A stretch of DNA of 52,388 bases. Source: an uncultured Bacilli bacterium. Its GTDB lineage: Bacteria > Bacillota_I > Bacilli_A > RF39 > UBA660. This document shows, piece after piece, positions 104 to 37,576 of the stretch. The notes below the pieces were generated by a model. It made no database searches, had not been told where the DNA came from, and saw nothing but the letters and a program-made list of their open reading frames with translations. The translations under genes and the position numbers were made by a program. The DNA is taken from the NCBI GenBank assembly GCA_947630055.1, contig CANRGA010000005.1, positions 1-52,388 on the forward strand. Direction: 5' to 3'. Every line of letters starts with the position of its first letter. Position 1 is the first letter of the stretch.

Positions 104-2214
104 TTAACAAACAAGTTCTGGATAACCACTTTTTCCCAATTTCCAATTACATAAACCATATGCACTTAAATTACTATCTATACTACTCAAGTTAATTGTT
201 TTTTTATTATTATTTAATAAATCGACAAATGTATTATTCTTCATATCATTCAAACTTTTTGTTGTTACTCCTTCTACACTTAGATTACTTGTTGTATAAT
301 CACTTAAATGATAGACATTATTTATTACATTAAATTGGGTATTTGTTCCTAAATTTCCAAAGCCATAGTTTCCTGTTGTTCCATTTAATGTTCCTCCTGT
401 ATATACATTATTTAATGTAAGTTTTACATAACAATTACCAGATTCCCAAAATGAATGTACAATACCACTGGCTTTGTCTCTATTATTTGTTATATTTCCT
501 ATATTATAGCTATTTATTGCCATAAATATATTAGTAGTAGTCGTATTAAAATTTCCAACAATACCTGCTGCTGATATATTTTGCGATGTAATATTACCTT
601 TATTATATGTATTTAGTACATATGCTTTCCCATTATTAATTAATCCAACTATTCCTCCACATGAGTCTTGATTATTTACATACGGGCTACTTGTTATGTT
701 GCCTTCATTATATGATTTATCTATATATAATGTACCTCCACTATTAATTTGACCTACTATTCCTCCTCCTCTTCTCATTCCATTTACTTCAGCATGATTA
801 TTAGAATTAATTATTTTTGCAACTGTTCCTTTACTATCTCCGGATACTCTTCCTAGTATTCCGCCACCATTTCCTGTAAAACTTGTATTTGATTCGTTAT
901 ATTCACTTCTAACTTCGCCATAATTATCACTATTTTCTATAATAACCGTACTACCAATTGCTGCTATTCCCATTATGCCACCCATTTTTTGCTCTGTTGC
1001 TATTGATTTTCCTGTTGTTATTAAACCATAATTTTTACAATTTGTTATAGTAAGATTAGAGGCTATTGTATCTGTCCTTCCTATTATTCCTCCCATAGCA
1101 GTATAACCAAGTGAATTAGTTATTGTTCCTCTATTTTCACAATTTTCTATTTTTACATTACTACTATACTCACCAATTCTTGCTACTATACCACTAGTAT
1201 TATTACCATTTGATATGTTTCCTTTATTAGTACAATTTGTTACTTCAGACTCACCATGTAAAGAACCAATTAATCCTCCTACTTGAAATCGTCCAACTTC
1301 ACTTGTTATATTTACTTCATTATGACAATTGTTTACTTTTGAATTATGTGCTAATGCTGAAAATGCGCCAATATTAGTATTTACTGATGCTATTATTTCT
1401 CCCCCTATGGTTAAATTGGCTATTTCTGCATTTTCTATTCTTGTAAATAATCCAATAGATGCCGTATCAATATCATTTTTTATATATAAATTATCTATTT
1501 TATGATTTTTGCCATCAAATATCCCACTAAATGGCCTTTCAACTCTTTCATTATTAGTATAAAAACCTATTGGTTTCCATCCTCTTCCTGTTGTTAGTTC
1601 TGTTTTTAATTCTTCATCTATTTCATTACCATTGATATCACCATATTCTTTAGTTTGGTAATTTCGGTAACTATCATTCTTTTGGAAATCTAAATTTCTT
1701 GTTAATTCAAAATATTTTCCTTCATATGTTTCGCCATTATTTACTGCTACTTGTAAATCAACTAAATCTTCTATGTATTGTATTCTATATGGATGTTCTT
1801 TCTCTCCTGTTTCTGAATAATCAAAATATAATGTACAATATATTGTTTTACTACTTAATACTTTACTTGCTTCTATTTCATTTCCATTTTTATCTTCACA
1901 TTTACTTTTATCTATATTTAAGTAATATCCTTTAGGAAAATTATCACTATCTGTATATTCTTTATAACTATCTCCATCTTCTATATACATAGCAAATTTT
2001 TTTCTATCTATTTGATTTATTTCTTTTTCTTTTATTACTTCTTTATTGAAAAGTTTACTATTTGTAATTGTTTTTATCCCAATAAATGATAATAACAAAA
2101 TTACAAATAATATCGGTACTATATTATCTTTATTTATTTTACTCTTTAATCTTTTTAGACTATAAGAGTACCCCCCCCGATTTTTTGTTTCATATTTTTA
2201 ATTTTATTCTTCAT
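104..2214 (-). pseudogene. GLUG-repeat surface protein, phase-OFF at a G8 tract
   Basis: The open frame 104-2098 has no ATG near its 5' end. An ATG at 2214-2212, with GAAGGG seven bases upstream, opens MKNKIKNMKQKIGGG and then stops at TAA after the G8 tract at 2171-2178. One extra G (nine in all) joins that ATG to the long frame through GGYSYSLKRLKSK and gives a 703-residue protein. That protein would have a basic cytoplasmic N-terminus, one membrane segment (NIVPILFVILLLSFIGI) and a large outside region. The outside region carries at least seven GLUG-type repeats (GGLIG, GGIIG, GGIMG, GGGILG, GGGIVG, CGGIVG, AAGIVG, each followed by N.yN.G.I), a fold usual in bacterial surface adhesin-like proteins. 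There is no lipobox and no sorting tail. The frame is otherwise undamaged over 2 kb, which argues for a reversible switch over decay. A TTG start at 2098 inside the membrane segment is the other, poorer reading. An assembly error in the run is possible. Confidence 0.8.
2171..2178 (-). repeat. G8 homopolymer, translational slip site
   Basis: Eight consecutive Gs lie on the coding strand between ATC and TACTCTTATAGT. With eight the frame reads GGG GGG GGT ACT CTT ATA GTC TAA (stop). With seven it reads GGG GGG GTA CTC TTA TAG (stop). With six, nine or twelve it enters the GLUG frame. G runs of this length are very rare in such A+T-rich DNA. Confidence 0.9.
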
Positions 2215-32393: not shown

Positions 32394-32425
32394 AAAAAAG
32401 AACAAGTTATTTAAAACTTGCTCTT
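32394..32425 (-). terminator. terminator of the first NPKTG gene
   Basis: On the minus strand AAGAGCAAGTT/AACTTGTTCTT with loop TTAAAT is followed by T6. Confidence 0.9.
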
Positions 32426-32433
32426 AAATTTAA

Positions 32434-33690
32434 TTAATTTGTTTTTCTTAATTTTTTAACACTTAATGCTGCTACTGCAACACTTGCAAGTCCTAAGCTT
32501 AGATACATTAGAATGTTATCACCAGTTTTAGGGTTTTCTTCTTCAGTTACAGTTTCTTGTACAACTATTTTCTTAAATGTTGCTTTTACAACTACATCTT
32601 TCTCAGGCATTTTAAATGTTAATTCTTTTTGTTCTTTGCCATCAACATATAATTTATCTAATTCGTAACCTTCATCAGCTTTAATAGTAATTTTAACTTC
32701 CTCATCTTTTTGAGCAGATGTTTTATCAACTGTTACTTTACCATTTTCAGCTTCAGTTGTTATAGCATAATATTTTGTTACTCCTTTTGTATATGTTACA
32801 TTTTCACCAACAATATTAGCACCAGCTTCAACTGTAACTTTTTTTTCAAATGTTAATGTAGCGCTATTAACAGTTTTAATAGTTACACCAGCAGGTATAG
32901 TAACTTCTTCTTTTACTGTTGTAGGTTCATTAACATTAATTTCTGTTACACCGGTTTTTTCTGCTTCTTCTAATGCTTGTTCAATACTTGTATAATAATA
33001 TGATCTTTCACCATTTGATGCAGTTATAGGAAATTCAATATCATATGTAACTCTTACATAAGTATATTTAACTTGTCCACCTTCAGTAGTTCTCCATACC
33101 CAAACAGTATCACTCTCTGGAACAGCAAAAATATAATCTTTACCATATATTAAAGTTCCATGGTTATTAGTAGCATCTTTTATTGCATCTTCAATTGTTT
33201 TTATTCCAGTACCCTCTTCATCAATTTTAGTCCATACTCCATCTTTGTTATATAAAATTTGTACACCTAATGTCCATATAGTTGTTGTTGAATCATGATC
33301 GTTACCTTGGCTTTGAGCATCAGCATTAGCTTTAGCTTTATCCATAGCACAAGCAAAATCACAATCAGCTGATGTATAAGCATAGTGTTTATCTAAGTTT
33401 CCATCTCCTCTTGCGATATCTGGATCAATACTAATATAGAAAATACCTAGACTAGCTTTACCATTTTCACTACCTTGATAACCTGGTGTTTGGCCTAAAA
33501 TATGAGTAATTGTGCTTTGATCAACTTTTACTGTTACCTTAACAGTTGAATATCCATCCTCCGGTTTAGTAATATTTTCAATTGTTAAACCTAAAGATAA
33601 TCCACCAGTAGTTGTTGTTAAGGCATGAACGCCAACTGTTGCTACAAACATAGCAATTATTGATGTTACAAATAATTTTAATTTTTTCAT
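32434..33690 (-). CDS. NPKTG-anchored surface protein A
   Basis: A 418-residue exported protein. The signal peptide MKKLKLFVTSIIAMFVATVG ends near VHA. The middle is beta-rich and unassigned. Residues about 310-375 form a bacterial-repeat domain of the kind found in adhesins (EAENGKVTVDKTSAQKDEEV, then FKMPEKDVVVKATFKK). The C-terminus is a sorting signal: NPKTG at residue 386, a hydrophobic stretch and KKLRKTN. NPKTG departs from LPxTG; no sortase is in the window. Signal, tail and promoter region are near-copies of those of two neighbouring genes. It is transcribed alone from a G8 promoter and closed by its own terminator. Confidence 0.88.
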   Translation of the reverse strand: MKKLKLFVTSIIAMFVATVGVHALTTTTGGLSLGLTIENITKPEDGYSTVKVTVKVDQSTITHILGQTPGYQGSENGKASLGIFYISIDPDIARGDGNLDKHYAYTSADCDFACAMDKAKANADAQSQGNDHDSTTTIWTLGVQILYNKDGVWTKIDEEGTGIKTIEDAIKDATNNHGTLIYGKDYIFAVPESDTVWVWRTTEGGQVKYTYVRVTYDIEFPITASNGERSYYYTSIEQALEEAEKTGVTEINVNEPTTVKEEVTIPAGVTIKTVNSATLTFEKKVTVEAGANIVGENVTYTKGVTKYYAITTEAENGKVTVDKTSAQKDEEVKITIKADEGYELDKLYVDGKEQKELTFKMPEKDVVVKATFKKIVVQETVTEEENPKTGDNILMYLSLGLASVAVAALSVKKLRKTN

Positions 33691-33748: not shown

Positions 33749-33778
33749 AGTATACCCCCCCCGAACTTTTAAAGTCAA
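33749..33778 (-). promoter_or_regulatory. G8-spacer promoter of surface protein A (putative phase switch)
   Basis: On the minus strand TTGACT (33778-33773), an 18-base spacer TTAAAAGTTC-G8 and TATACT (33754-33749); a second possible -10, TATAAT, lies six bases on. The G8 tract is at 33755-33762. Losing one G gives the optimal 17-base spacer, and gaining one gives 19. The G tract directly abuts the -10 box. Confidence 0.85.
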
Positions 33779-33811
33779 CCTCAATTATTGGTAGAACATT
33801 TTTCTTGACAC

Positions 33812-33847
33812 AAAAAAACATATTACTTTTTTTCAAAGCAATATGTT
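33812..33847 (-). terminator. terminator of surface protein B
   Basis: On the minus strand AACATATT/AATATGTT is followed by T6. Confidence 0.85.
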
Positions 33848-33872
33848 TTCCTTACTATTTTAACTTATTTAA

Positions 33873-35387
33873 TTAATTTGTTTTTCTTAATTTTTTAACA
33901 CTTAATGATGCTACTGCAACACTTGCAAGTCCTAAGCTTAGATACATAAAAATGTTATCACCAGTTTTTGGGTTTTCTTCTTCAGTTGTTTCTGTTGTTT
34001 CAGGAGTAACAACTGGAGTTTCAACTTTTTTAAATGTTACAGTTACTTTTACATCACTAGTTGGCATTGTAAATCTAATTCCACCATCAGCACTTAAGAA
34101 TTTTACAGTTTTACCATCTTTATCAGTAATAGTTACAGAATCAATTTGGTAACCTTTATCAGCTGTAATTTTTACAACTACTTCTTCACCTTCAGCAGCA
34201 TTTGTATATGCTTCTACTTTTCCATTTTCAGTTTTGGTAATTTCAACTTTATGTAATTTTCCTACTTTTCCACTTTCAGATTGACCTAAATCATTTGAAG
34301 CAAGATATTCTTTTTCAACATCTACATTAAATGTACCACCTGAAACTTTAATTTTTTTAGCTCCAGGGTTTTCATAATCTAATACGGCTTCTTTTCCTTT
34401 AGGAACATTAAATTCACCTTTTTCAATATTTACTTCAGCAGGATCAGTATTATAAGCACCTTCTTCTGAATTATCAACTATAACTGCAACTCCTTGAGGT
34501 ACTAGAACATAATCACCATCTTTTTTCGCATCTCCAACTCTTATTGGTTCGCCAGTTCCTTTAGCATTAATAGTACCACCATCAACAGTAATATCACCTT
34601 GACGAGCTACGATACCAATTGCTCCAGTTATAGTACCACCAGTAATATTTAAAGTACCAGTTTGTGGATGATAAATTGCAGCACTTTTAGCACTTTTTAA
34701 TGTACCACCAGAAATTTCAATTAATGAATTAGTAGTATCTCTACCATTTCCTGAAATAGCAAAATCATCATCAGAATCTATTGTACCATTTTTAAAATAT
34801 AAATGAGGTCCAGCACCACTAACTAAAATTCCACCTTTTATTAATACAGCTGATTCACCTTTTTCTTCAACAGTTAATTCTGCACCACCAAAAACAGTGA
34901 CAGCTGAATAACTTTTTCCATCAGTAGAATTACCTGATTTAATAAATTCGCCACCTTCAATTGTTACTTTAGCAGTTCCTGTTACTAATAAAGCAGAACT
35001 TCCTTTTTGATTTTCAATTCCACCTTTACCAACAAAAGTAACTTCACTTGTTCCTTTTACTACAAATGCAGCAAATTCGCTTGGTAGTTGAGTTGCTGTA
35101 ATTTTATTACCATTAAAATCAAAAGTAATATTTTTATTGTTAATTTCAATACGATTTGTTGTATTTTGTTCTGTAAATGAATAAGGTTTTAATAATTTTA
35201 CAGTTTCGCCTGTAACTGCAGTATCAACTGCATCTTTAACAGTAGAACAATATTTTTCTGTTGATCCACTTACAATACTTGCATCAGCATCTTCTTTAGC
35301 CACACCATCACATGCTGCAGCATGAACACCAACTGTTGCTACAAACATAGCAAGCATTGTTGTTACAAATAATTTTAATTTTTTCAT
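33873..35387 (-). CDS. NPKTG-anchored surface protein B, beta-helix type
   Basis: A 504-residue exported protein. The signal peptide is nearly identical to that of protein A. Residues about 55-330 have short turns rich in Gly, Asn and Thr (GGTLKSAKSAAIYHPQTG, GGTITGAIGIVARQGDI), the pattern of a right-handed parallel beta-helix seen in adhesins and polysaccharide-binding proteins. A bacterial-repeat domain (KTENGKVEAYTNAAEGEEVV ... FTMPTSDVKVTVTFKK) follows, and a sorting tail with NPKTG at residue 472. No catalytic residues of a lyase are evident, so adhesion is the likelier role. Monocistronic, with its own G8 promoter and terminator. Confidence 0.88.
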   Translation of the reverse strand: MKKLKLFVTTMLAMFVATVGVHAAACDGVAKEDADASIVSGSTEKYCSTVKDAVDTAVTGETVKLLKPYSFTEQNTTNRIEINNKNITFDFNGNKITATQLPSEFAAFVVKGTSEVTFVGKGGIENQKGSSALLVTGTAKVTIEGGEFIKSGNSTDGKSYSAVTVFGGAELTVEEKGESAVLIKGGILVSGAGPHLYFKNGTIDSDDDFAISGNGRDTTNSLIEISGGTLKSAKSAAIYHPQTGTLNITGGTITGAIGIVARQGDITVDGGTINAKGTGEPIRVGDAKKDGDYVLVPQGVAVIVDNSEEGAYNTDPAEVNIEKGEFNVPKGKEAVLDYENPGAKKIKVSGGTFNVDVEKEYLASNDLGQSESGKVGKLHKVEITKTENGKVEAYTNAAEGEEVVVKITADKGYQIDSVTITDKDGKTVKFLSADGGIRFTMPTSDVKVTVTFKKVETPVVTPETTETTEEENPKTGDNIFMYLSLGLASVAVASLSVKKLRKTN

Positions 35388-35446
35388 AATATCCTCTTCC
35401 TTTCTTTAAAACTATTTTGTTTTCAGTTTTCTCCTTTCTTAGTATA

Positions 35447-35476
35447 AGTATACCCCCCCCGAATTTTTAAAGTCAA
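35447..35476 (-). promoter_or_regulatory. G8-spacer promoter of surface protein B (putative phase switch)
   Basis: TTGACT (35476-35471), an 18-base spacer ending in G8 (35460-35453) and TATACT (35452-35447), then a second TATACT. Architecture and spacing are identical to the promoters of proteins A and C. Confidence 0.85.
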
Positions 35477-35508
35477 CCTATTTTCGTCTCTTTGTTAAAA
35501 ATTGACAT

Positions 35509-35545
35509 AAAAAAACACATTATTTTCTTTAAATAATGTGTTTTT
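35509..35545 (-). terminator. terminator of surface protein C
   Basis: On the minus strand the 12-base stem AACACATTATTT/AAATAATGTGTT (read across both arms) is followed by T7. Confidence 0.9.
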
Positions 35546-35569
35546 GATTATTATTTTCTATTGTTTAAA

Positions 35570-37267
35570 CTAATTTGATTTTTTTAATTTTTTGACACTT
35601 AATGTTGCTACTGCAACACTTGCTAGTCCTAAACTTAGATACATTAGAATATTATCACCAGTTTGTGGATTATTTGTTGCTACTTTTTCTAATCCTTTAA
35701 TTGCATTTTCTAATTTTTTAACAGCATTATCAATAGAAACTTGATCCTTAATTTTTAAATCTCTTGATAAATTCTTTGCTTCTTTTAAGGCTTCTTCAAG
35801 TTTTTTATAACTTTCCTCTGTATATTGTTTTTTATTTATTTTTGATGCTTGCTCAATTAATTCATCTAATTTAGTATAGTCAGCTTTTATATCAGAATAT
35901 GTTGCTGTTACCTCTGTATCATTAGTTAATTCAGAGTCTGCTGCTAATACTTTTTTATTTGCTAAATAACTATCAATTTGTTTTCCTTCAACAGCTAACA
36001 TAGTATCTAATTTATTTTTTCCGACTTTAGACAATTCTCCAAATTTTTGATTTTTAAATAGTAATACTACACCTTCAGCAACATCATCACCAACTTTAGC
36101 AGTGATTTTAATTAAATTATATGTTCCCTCAGCTCCATCATTTAATGTTTTTACTACACTTGAATCAGCCGTAGTTACTTTTAAATCTTTACCAATATGA
36201 TTTTTTACTTTAACTGTACCATCTGCAGCAATATCTTCTAAAGTAATTTCTAAAGTATCATTATCAACAGAATATACATGTAATAAGTCTCCAACACGAA
36301 CAACACCAGTTATTCCAGATTCAGGAGCAGTAAATACATCATTAGTAATATGACTTACTTTTAAAGTAACATTATTATTTCCTCCTGTTTGAACAGTTAA
36401 TTTAGCATTTACGCCACCATAAGGAGCAAGAACACTACCAGCTTCTAAAGTAGCATTATCTTTAAATGTTAACCCATTTCCTGTAACACCAATATCTTCT
36501 TCTCCATTATTATTACTTACAATAGTAGCATCGTCACTTATTGTACCACTAGTATAAATTCCAGATAACTTATTGTTTTCAACTGTTAATTTAGCATTAT
36601 CTTCAGCAATTAATCCATTAGCTGTAGTTAAACCACGATCGTTATCGTGAGAATAATACTCACTATTTTCAGATACAGTCATATTGCCAATATTAGCAGC
36701 GTGAGCACAATTAGAAACTTCTAGTTTTCCGCCATTTTTAAGAACAACAGCATTAGTACGAACAGCAGTATGTCCATATCCTGAAATAGAAACTTTTCCA
36801 CCATCTACTTCAAGAGTACCTTCATCAGTATACCAGCCTCTTTCACTTCTCTTACTAATAGCAATTGTATTTCCACCAGAAGTACTAGCAACTAATTCGT
36901 CTTTAACAATTAATTTAGAACTGGTGTCTAATAATACATTTATAAGTTTGTTATTTACAATATCACCAACACCTGTAACATATATATCATCATCACTATC
37001 ATTAACAGCAAAATTAACTAATTCTAATTTTCCAGTAATAGTTAATGTTTTACTATCATCAATTACAACTCTCTTGTTATCTACTATAACATTTCCACTA
37101 AGTTCGTAAGATCCAGTAACTTGAATAACCCTATCTGATGATGATAAACAAGATTTGAAAGCCGTTTCATTATTTGCTGTACATATTGTTGACGTTGCAG
37201 CATGAACACCAACAGCAGCTACAAACATAGTAATTATTGATGTTAAAAACAATTTTAATTTTTTCAT
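35570..37267 (-). CDS. NPQTG-anchored surface protein C
   Basis: A 565-residue exported protein with the same signal peptide family (MKKLKLFLTSIITMFVAAVG). Residues about 35-330 are beta-helix-like, with many short N-G-G and D-D turns (GGKLEVSNCAHAANIGNMTV). Residues about 455-525 form a helical FIVAR-like bundle (YTKLDELIEQASKINKKQYT, SYKKLEEALKEAKNL, IDNAVKKLENAIKGLEK), a spacer or fibronectin/sugar-binding module in Gram-positive surface proteins. The sorting tail has NPQTG at residue 533. It differs from A and B in its interior but shares both ends and the promoter, as if cassettes were exchanged between fixed ends. Confidence 0.88.
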   Translation of the reverse strand: MKKLKLFLTSIITMFVAAVGVHAATSTICTANNETAFKSCLSSSDRVIQVTGSYELSGNVIVDNKRVVIDDSKTLTITGKLELVNFAVNDSDDDIYVTGVGDIVNNKLINVLLDTSSKLIVKDELVASTSGGNTIAISKRSERGWYTDEGTLEVDGGKVSISGYGHTAVRTNAVVLKNGGKLEVSNCAHAANIGNMTVSENSEYYSHDNDRGLTTANGLIAEDNAKLTVENNKLSGIYTSGTISDDATIVSNNNGEEDIGVTGNGLTFKDNATLEAGSVLAPYGGVNAKLTVQTGGNNNVTLKVSHITNDVFTAPESGITGVVRVGDLLHVYSVDNDTLEITLEDIAADGTVKVKNHIGKDLKVTTADSSVVKTLNDGAEGTYNLIKITAKVGDDVAEGVVLLFKNQKFGELSKVGKNKLDTMLAVEGKQIDSYLANKKVLAADSELTNDTEVTATYSDIKADYTKLDELIEQASKINKKQYTEESYKKLEEALKEAKNLSRDLKIKDQVSIDNAVKKLENAIKGLEKVATNNPQTGDNILMYLSLGLASVAVATLSVKKLKKSN

Positions 37268-37335
37268 ATTTATCCTCTTCCTTTCTTTAAAATCGTTTGC
37301 TTATTTTGTAAACGTTTTTCTCCTTTCTTACTATA

Positions 37336-37365
37336 AGTATACCCCCCCCGAATTTTTTAAGTCAA
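37336..37365 (-). promoter_or_regulatory. G8-spacer promoter of surface protein C (putative phase switch)
   Basis: TTGACT (37365-37360), an 18-base spacer ending in G8 (37349-37342) and TATACT (37341-37336). The 5' untranslated region and about 50 bases upstream of the -35 are closely similar to those of protein B. Confidence 0.85.
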
Positions 37366-37399: not shown

Positions 37400-37543
37400 T
37401 TATTTAGTCTTTTTACTTTTTCTTATTTTATCTACAGCCAAAATAATAATTACTATACTTACTATACCTAGGCCAATAAAAAGATAGATACTATCTAAAG
37501 TATTAGGATTTTCAATTATCACTTGTTTAGCTAAATTTGTCAT
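37400..37543 (-). CDS. 47-residue miniprotein resembling a free sorting signal
   Basis: ATG at 37543 with GAAGGGAAG upstream opens a 47-codon frame ending TAA at 37400. It reads ENPNTLDSIYLFIGLGIVS, then a hydrophobic run and KIRKSKKTK. This matches the C-terminal tail of the neighbouring surface proteins (NPKTGDNI-hydrophobic-KKLRKTN), except that the Gly after NPNT is replaced by Leu, so sortase cutting is doubtful. There is no signal peptide in front: only ten residues precede NPNT. It could be a single-pass membrane peptide, a decoy or regulator of the sorting machinery, or the fossil end of a deleted surface protein. The good ribosome site argues for translation. Confidence 0.6.
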   Translation of the reverse strand: MTNLAKQVIIENPNTLDSIYLFIGLGIVSIVIIILAVDKIRKSKKTK

Positions 37544-37576
37544 TTAATTCTTCCCTTCTAATATAACTAGTTTGCA

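Follow-up and report, generated by a model that had tools for sequence, protein, structure and literature searches.

What does a run of eight guanines do when it sits, three times over, in the promoter spacers of neighboring surface-protein genes? The question arises in a stretch of 52,388 nucleotides (the window), which is contig 5 of an approximately 1.19-Mb, 60-contig genome (labeled G000) of an uncultured Bacilli bacterium. A sequence-only reading of this DNA had described three promoters with a G8 run against the −10 hexamer and had proposed that they phase vary. Its coordinates and letters are correct, as follows.

33749..33778, minus strand: promoter 1, TTGACT-N10-G8-TATACT (TTGACT 33773-33778, G8 33755-33762, TATACT 33749-33754)
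35447..35476, minus strand: promoter 2, TTGACT-N10-G8-TATACT (TTGACT 35471-35476, G8 35453-35460, TATACT 35447-35452)
37336..37365, minus strand: promoter 3, TTGACT-N10-G8-TATACT (TTGACT 37360-37365, G8 37342-37349, TATACT 37336-37341)

The spacer from −35 to −10 is 18 nt in all three promoters, and the ten bases between TTGACT and the G-run GGGGGGGG are TTAAAAGTTC, TTAAAAATTC, or TAAAAAATTC. Each promoter lies 64 to 74 nt upstream of an ATG and serves one gene, which bears out the claim that each precedes a single NPxTG surface gene. The three genes and the terminator-like hairpins that separate them are the following.

32434..33690, minus strand: exported protein of 418 aa with wall-anchor signal NPKTG (end NPKTGDN) and an InlB B-repeat-like domain (PF18998)
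33873..35387, minus strand: exported protein of 504 aa with wall-anchor signal NPKTG (end NPKTGDN) and an InlB B-repeat-like domain (PF18998)
35570..37267, minus strand: exported protein of 565 aa with wall-anchor signal NPQTG (end NPQTGDN); FIVAR matches weakly, below cut-off
32398..32425, minus strand: terminator-like hairpin after the 32434-33690 gene (terminator scan)
about 33812..33847, minus strand: AT-rich hairpin and T-run, terminator-like, after the 33873-35387 gene (read from the sequence)
about 35509..35542, minus strand: AT-rich hairpin and T-run, terminator-like, after the 35570-37267 gene (sequence reading and repeat search)

By sequence, all three proteins have an N-terminal export signal (signal peptide) and a membrane tail after NPxTGDN. 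The two AT-rich hairpins fall below the G+C threshold of the terminator scanner. Around the window promoters, a search for inverted repeats returned only the terminator hairpins and chance-like pairs, and an invertible, recombinase-flipped promoter was ruled out by this lack of flanking inverted repeats. The occurrence of G8 in the window is far beyond chance: four runs were observed, about 40 times the 0.11 expected from dinucleotide shuffles, in which the maximum was 2. Apart from these four, G/C homopolymers in the window do not exceed 5 bases.

Three independent runs had been taken as the scale of the system, and this was a considerable underestimate. G000 contains approximately 37 runs of G7 or more, of which 34 are promoter-type G8, although some of these sit at contig ends and a few are perhaps counted twice. 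A search of G000 by flanks alone added one promoter copy with G6, giving 34 G8 to one G6, or about 35 promoters; the sequence-only reading had missed about 31 G8 promoters elsewhere in the genome as well as the fourth run of the window. Two layouts account for them. In layout A, TTGACW-N10-Gn-TATAMT, to which the window promoters belong, the G-run lies directly against the −10 and the spacer is 18 nt at G8. Layout B reads TTGACTCTC-G8-TATTATATAATA, or in general form TTGACTCTC-Gn-TATTATATAATAATCTTATA, with 16 nt to TATAAT at G8; here the G-run begins 2 to 3 nt from the −35, and 5 nt separate it from the best −10 (TATAAT) downstream. Downstream products in G000 are exported or membrane anchored in nearly all cases, with two dominant families (14 proteins ending in RPVFYL...GT..NPYI and 7 ending in WF.RGG...FRIAL) and a few exceptions, such as one AMP-binding-like and one acyltransferase-like protein, identified by eye. 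The runs are also pure: B promoters located by their flanks alone are almost all uninterrupted, the sole exception being in the relative G004, and the flanks of poly-G promoters diverge at 9 to 17% of sites.

The long G-runs of G000 that are not in promoters comprise the fourth window run and a repeated contig-end element (L064, the end of L065, and the start of L069). The latter reads aataaaaaga-G8 or G7-aaatatc, and its copies differ in run length within the genome (G8, G8, G7). The fourth window run lies within the start of a gene.

2171-2178, minus strand: fourth G8, at the 5' end of the GLUG-repeat protein gene, between ATG 2212-2214 and the GLUG frame
104..2098, minus strand: reading frame of the GLUG-repeat protein, 664 aa counted from a TTG start; the fourth G8 lies upstream of it

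Reading from the ATG at 2212-2214 gives 19 aa with G8 and a fusion of 702 to 703 aa with G9 or G6, and the run is thus a possible translational switch. Relatives of the GLUG gene in G015, G017, G021, and G024 have a B-type G8/G9 promoter upstream in place of the coding tract, and for this reason we do no more than infer a coding role for the run at 2171.

Some of the genes behind poly-G promoters are connected to diversity-generating retroelements (DGRs). G000 encodes three DGR-type reverse transcriptases (RTs) with Avd-like neighbors (L237 on G000:C43, L238 on G000:C28, and L239 on G000:C3); the RTs match the RVT_1 profile and have the TSQ motif, while bAvd scored above the cut-off in one of the three and the other Avd model scored below it. 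On C43, the TR beside the RT and the VR that closes the neighboring surface gene differ at 22 positions, and all 22 mismatches fall on TR adenines, which identifies a DGR signature. RT, Avd, and TR/VR differences confined to TR adenines, the features shared with DGRs that have C-type-lectin-like variable proteins, were thus found together in this genome, outside the window. The variable-protein gene of C43 has a G8 promoter (L075). Several other variable-looking genes match VR-like sequence near another RT without adenine specificity, leaving C43 as the sole proven TR/VR pair. The two dominant families and many B genes look like DGR variable proteins. What distinguishes G000 from known DGRs is that poly-G promoters precede many look-alike genes and, in at least one case, a variable-protein gene itself.

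Do these tracts change in length? Among 38 genomes of the genus, 27 match the loose promoter layout, and several hold mixtures. Layout A copies in G004 have G10/9/9/8 (L209) and, in a pair with 40 identical upstream bases, G9/G8 (L210). Near-identical promoters carry G9/G9/G8 in G019 (L214), G8 to G10 in G035 (L212-L213), and G9/G9/G11/G10 in G015:C66 (L211). G021 has G8 in most promoters, four G7, and two G9, and G017 has mostly G8, plus G7, G9, and G10. G8/G9/G10 mixtures with otherwise near-identical cores occur in G004, G024, G023, G029, and G035. For instance, the 25 B promoters of G004 with near-identical cores comprise 12 G9, 12 G8, and one A-interrupted G7; when these lengths were placed on the gene tree, 8 changes were counted against 8.6 in shuffles (221 of 500 shuffles as low), so tract length in G004 is uncorrelated with ancestry. 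Moreover, an orthologous TTGACTAAAAAATATC promoter has G8, G8, and G7 in three species whose proteins are 81 to 90% identical. Near-identical promoters of relatives thus range from G7 to G11, or from G6 to G11 with the G6 copy of G000 included. Tract length changes on evolutionary time, and slippage would be the obvious cause.

The layout also extends beyond the genus. Of 395 genomes of the class, 25 have it, in 16 of the 192 genera, and a reversed-pattern control gave 0 of 395. When 84,980 species genomes were scanned for the exact pattern, at least 117 stretches with tracts of G7 to G14 came up, and the matches listed include gut Clostridia and Bacilli, Saccharibacteria, Treponema, Helicobacter, and Streptobacillus. 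Among the matches listed from outside the genus, 74% of 95 usable downstream genes have a hydrophobic export or anchor start versus 26% of 907 background frames. The poly-G layout is shared by many other gut bacteria, where it likewise precedes genes for exported proteins. One member of the genus itself is identical in sequence to a rabbit-gut Bacilli assembly (CANRKS010000004.1), which makes a mammalian-gut Bacilli genome the most likely source of the window.

The window locus itself is constant. All nine sites are G8 in three species (the window and the corresponding loci in two relatives, L198 and L199), with no length variation at the three window sites across these genomes, although clear one-to-one relatives at the locus exist for gene 1 only (the 418-aa protein, at 55% identity). 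The sequence-only reading had set a constant G8 in relatives against phase variation; constancy is what the window locus displays in three genomes, but not what the promoter family displays. Two parts of its proposal therefore stand, namely poly-G promoters ahead of surface proteins and a tract length that evolves (G7 to G11 in relatives), while variation at the window sites does not. A/T control runs in the flanks of these promoters are as variable as the G-runs or more so, and in G000 the G-run is by far the more constant of the two, a comparison that does not bear out the idea that G-runs are more labile than ordinary runs. Loss of mismatch repair was ruled out as a cause, since MutS1 is present in G000 and in 33 of the 38 genus genomes.

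Why eight? The sequence-only reading had noted that one G fewer would give the optimal 17-base spacer. Layouts A and B, at 18 and 16 nt with G8, carry equal numbers of G per genome (Spearman 0.93 over 9 genomes, with kinship ignored), and selection for 17-nt spacing was rejected as the source of the number 8, since it would have to shorten the run in A and lengthen it in B. Outside the genus, compensation between the non-G length and the G length of the spacer is weak (p about 0.06). The number in each genome is set either by slippage bias or by something that recognizes the G block. A set point common to A and B is what slippage bias would give, though a recognizing factor could also cause it. 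Modeled homopolymer tracts of meningococci have equilibria set by such bias (PMC4085013). The nonpromoter G8, G8, and G7 copies and the G8 at 2171 lead us to lean slightly toward slippage bias.

We propose, with a probability of about 0.55, that these are genus-wide sigma-A-type promoters whose pure poly-G spacer tract is maintained, whose output is tuned by slippage, and which serve almost exclusively exported, surface-anchored, or retroelement-diversified proteins. Replication slippage would add or remove one G, changing the −35/−10 spacing by one base and rotating the two elements by approximately 35 degrees; this shift would alter transcription of that single surface gene, and surface makeup would come to differ from cell to cell. 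In the window lineage, with its tract at a set point of 8, slippage is expected to be rare and switching slow, while sister species with 8/9/10 mixtures would switch faster. What has been observed directly is that the tracts exist and are pure, which classes of gene they precede, and that lengths differ between near-identical copies and between orthologs. From these we infer an effect on transcription and switching within populations; slippage-tuned expression in the window's genome is likely but unproven.

The main competing explanation is a fixed promoter element, in which G8 is structural (a stiff spacer) or recognized by a regulator and selection keeps the run at 8 or 9 without switching, so that length differences would be rare mutations, mildly harmful or neutral. 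We consider this a substantial candidate, if the less probable one. The 34-to-1 ratio in G000, the nine constant sites at a locus whose gene-1 relatives are only 55% identical, and the stability of the G-run relative to control runs are all in keeping with it, and a recognizing factor might produce the number common to A and B. Such a factor would have no constant place to bind, however, since the G-run adjoins the −10 in A and lies near the −35 in B. The mixtures on near-identical cores in five relatives also count against a fixed element, as does the recurrence of the layout with G7 to G14 in unrelated bacteria.

Two further explanations concern how the runs came to be there. Recent spread of promoter and leader by duplication or gene conversion, with G8 merely inherited, could explain why the B promoter and its 60-nt leader are almost identical ahead of strongly diverged proteins. 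We think it improbable, because it leaves unexplained the independent A layouts, the occurrence of the layout elsewhere in the class in other families, and the length variation of runs with near-identical flanks; unrelated G000 promoters (C35, C10, and C50) also carry the run. Chance or assembly error deserves hardly any weight. The source assembly is fragmented and homopolymers are error prone, and one-base length errors in single runs are possible. Nevertheless, the shuffles, the reversed-pattern control, and the recurrence of these promoters in many genomes that were assembled separately refute this explanation for the existence of the runs.

Promoter-spacer repeats ahead of surface proteins have precedents. 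At porA and opc of Neisseria and in Haemophilus, a homopolymer or repeat lies between the −35 and −10 of a sigma-70-type promoter that serves a surface protein, and its length alters the spacing; for porA and opc, length effects and switching have been measured, tracts are usually longer, and one or a few loci are involved. The window promoters resemble the porA type in having a homopolymer of 7 or more bases between the hexamers and surface proteins as products (export signal and NPxTG tail, by sequence). Tract length varies between related copies of the promoter family in relatives but is constant at the three window sites. G000 also differs in its phylum and in having about 35 copies. PMC9187656 cites the Haemophilus influenzae fimbrial promoter as a promoter-spacer repeat switch. 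The same paper reports slippage at G-tracts, some said to be in promoter spacers, in the Gram-positive gut commensal Bifidobacterium breve, and so the earlier statement that no description exists in this kind of organism was too strong. B. breve shares with the window system G-tracts and sortase-dependent surface structures. Its pilus tracts, however, are G10-G11 in coding sequence, longer than the window G8, and act as a translation switch with measured population heterogeneity (PMC9187656). Campylobacter jejuni NCTC11168 has 29 poly-G loci with tracts of 7 or more (PMC4965091). The likeness to G000 consists of tens of poly-G tracts, many in surface genes, a small AT-rich genome, and a narrow length range; the C. 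jejuni tracts lie mostly in reading frames and switch at measured high frequency, whereas those of G000 lie in promoter spacers, with MutS present and near-constant lengths.

A broader proposal, to which we give somewhat less than even odds, is that uncultured gut Bacilli diversify their surfaces in two layers and that the poly-G layout is a widespread and mostly unrecognized surface-gene device of gut bacteria. About 35 slippable promoters, at a species-specific set point, would pick the surface proteins and their dose, while retroelements would rewrite the binding faces of many of these proteins. Novel here would be the scale, the set point, and the coupling of such promoters to retroelement-diversified proteins. 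A literature search found no description of DGR variable genes paired with poly-G promoters, and no paper on DGRs with homopolymeric phase variation, on poly-G promoters in Firmicutes, or on DGRs in RF39; bioRxiv lay outside this search, which makes it weak evidence. If the runs slip, very many surface states would be available without dedicated recombinases, in combination with retroelement hypermutation of the displayed proteins. A question about contingency loci, usually a pathogen topic, could then be read directly from gut metagenomes of different hosts and dates, where each genome would offer about 35 promoters at which to look for mixed tract lengths. If the runs do not slip, a G8 block fixed throughout a surface regulon would still be new as a promoter feature and would call for explanation.

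Three minor observations concern the genes beside such promoters. Upstream of the third window promoter, a 47-codon frame (37404-37544, minus strand, ATG at 37544), read by eye, ends in a tail resembling a wall anchor (ENPNTLDSIYLFIGLG...KIRKSKKTK), with its protein missing, and is perhaps the remnant of a fourth surface gene. In the relative G015, the L211 genes (G015:C66) behind poly-G promoters begin with a prepilin-like KDGFTLIELL segment, and pili too may be under such promoters there. Poly-G promoters also precede small proteins that contain a TLLVAVVGATFAYF-like segment, both in G000 and in other Bacilli assemblies (L188, L189, and L059), at L188 as two near-identical copies.
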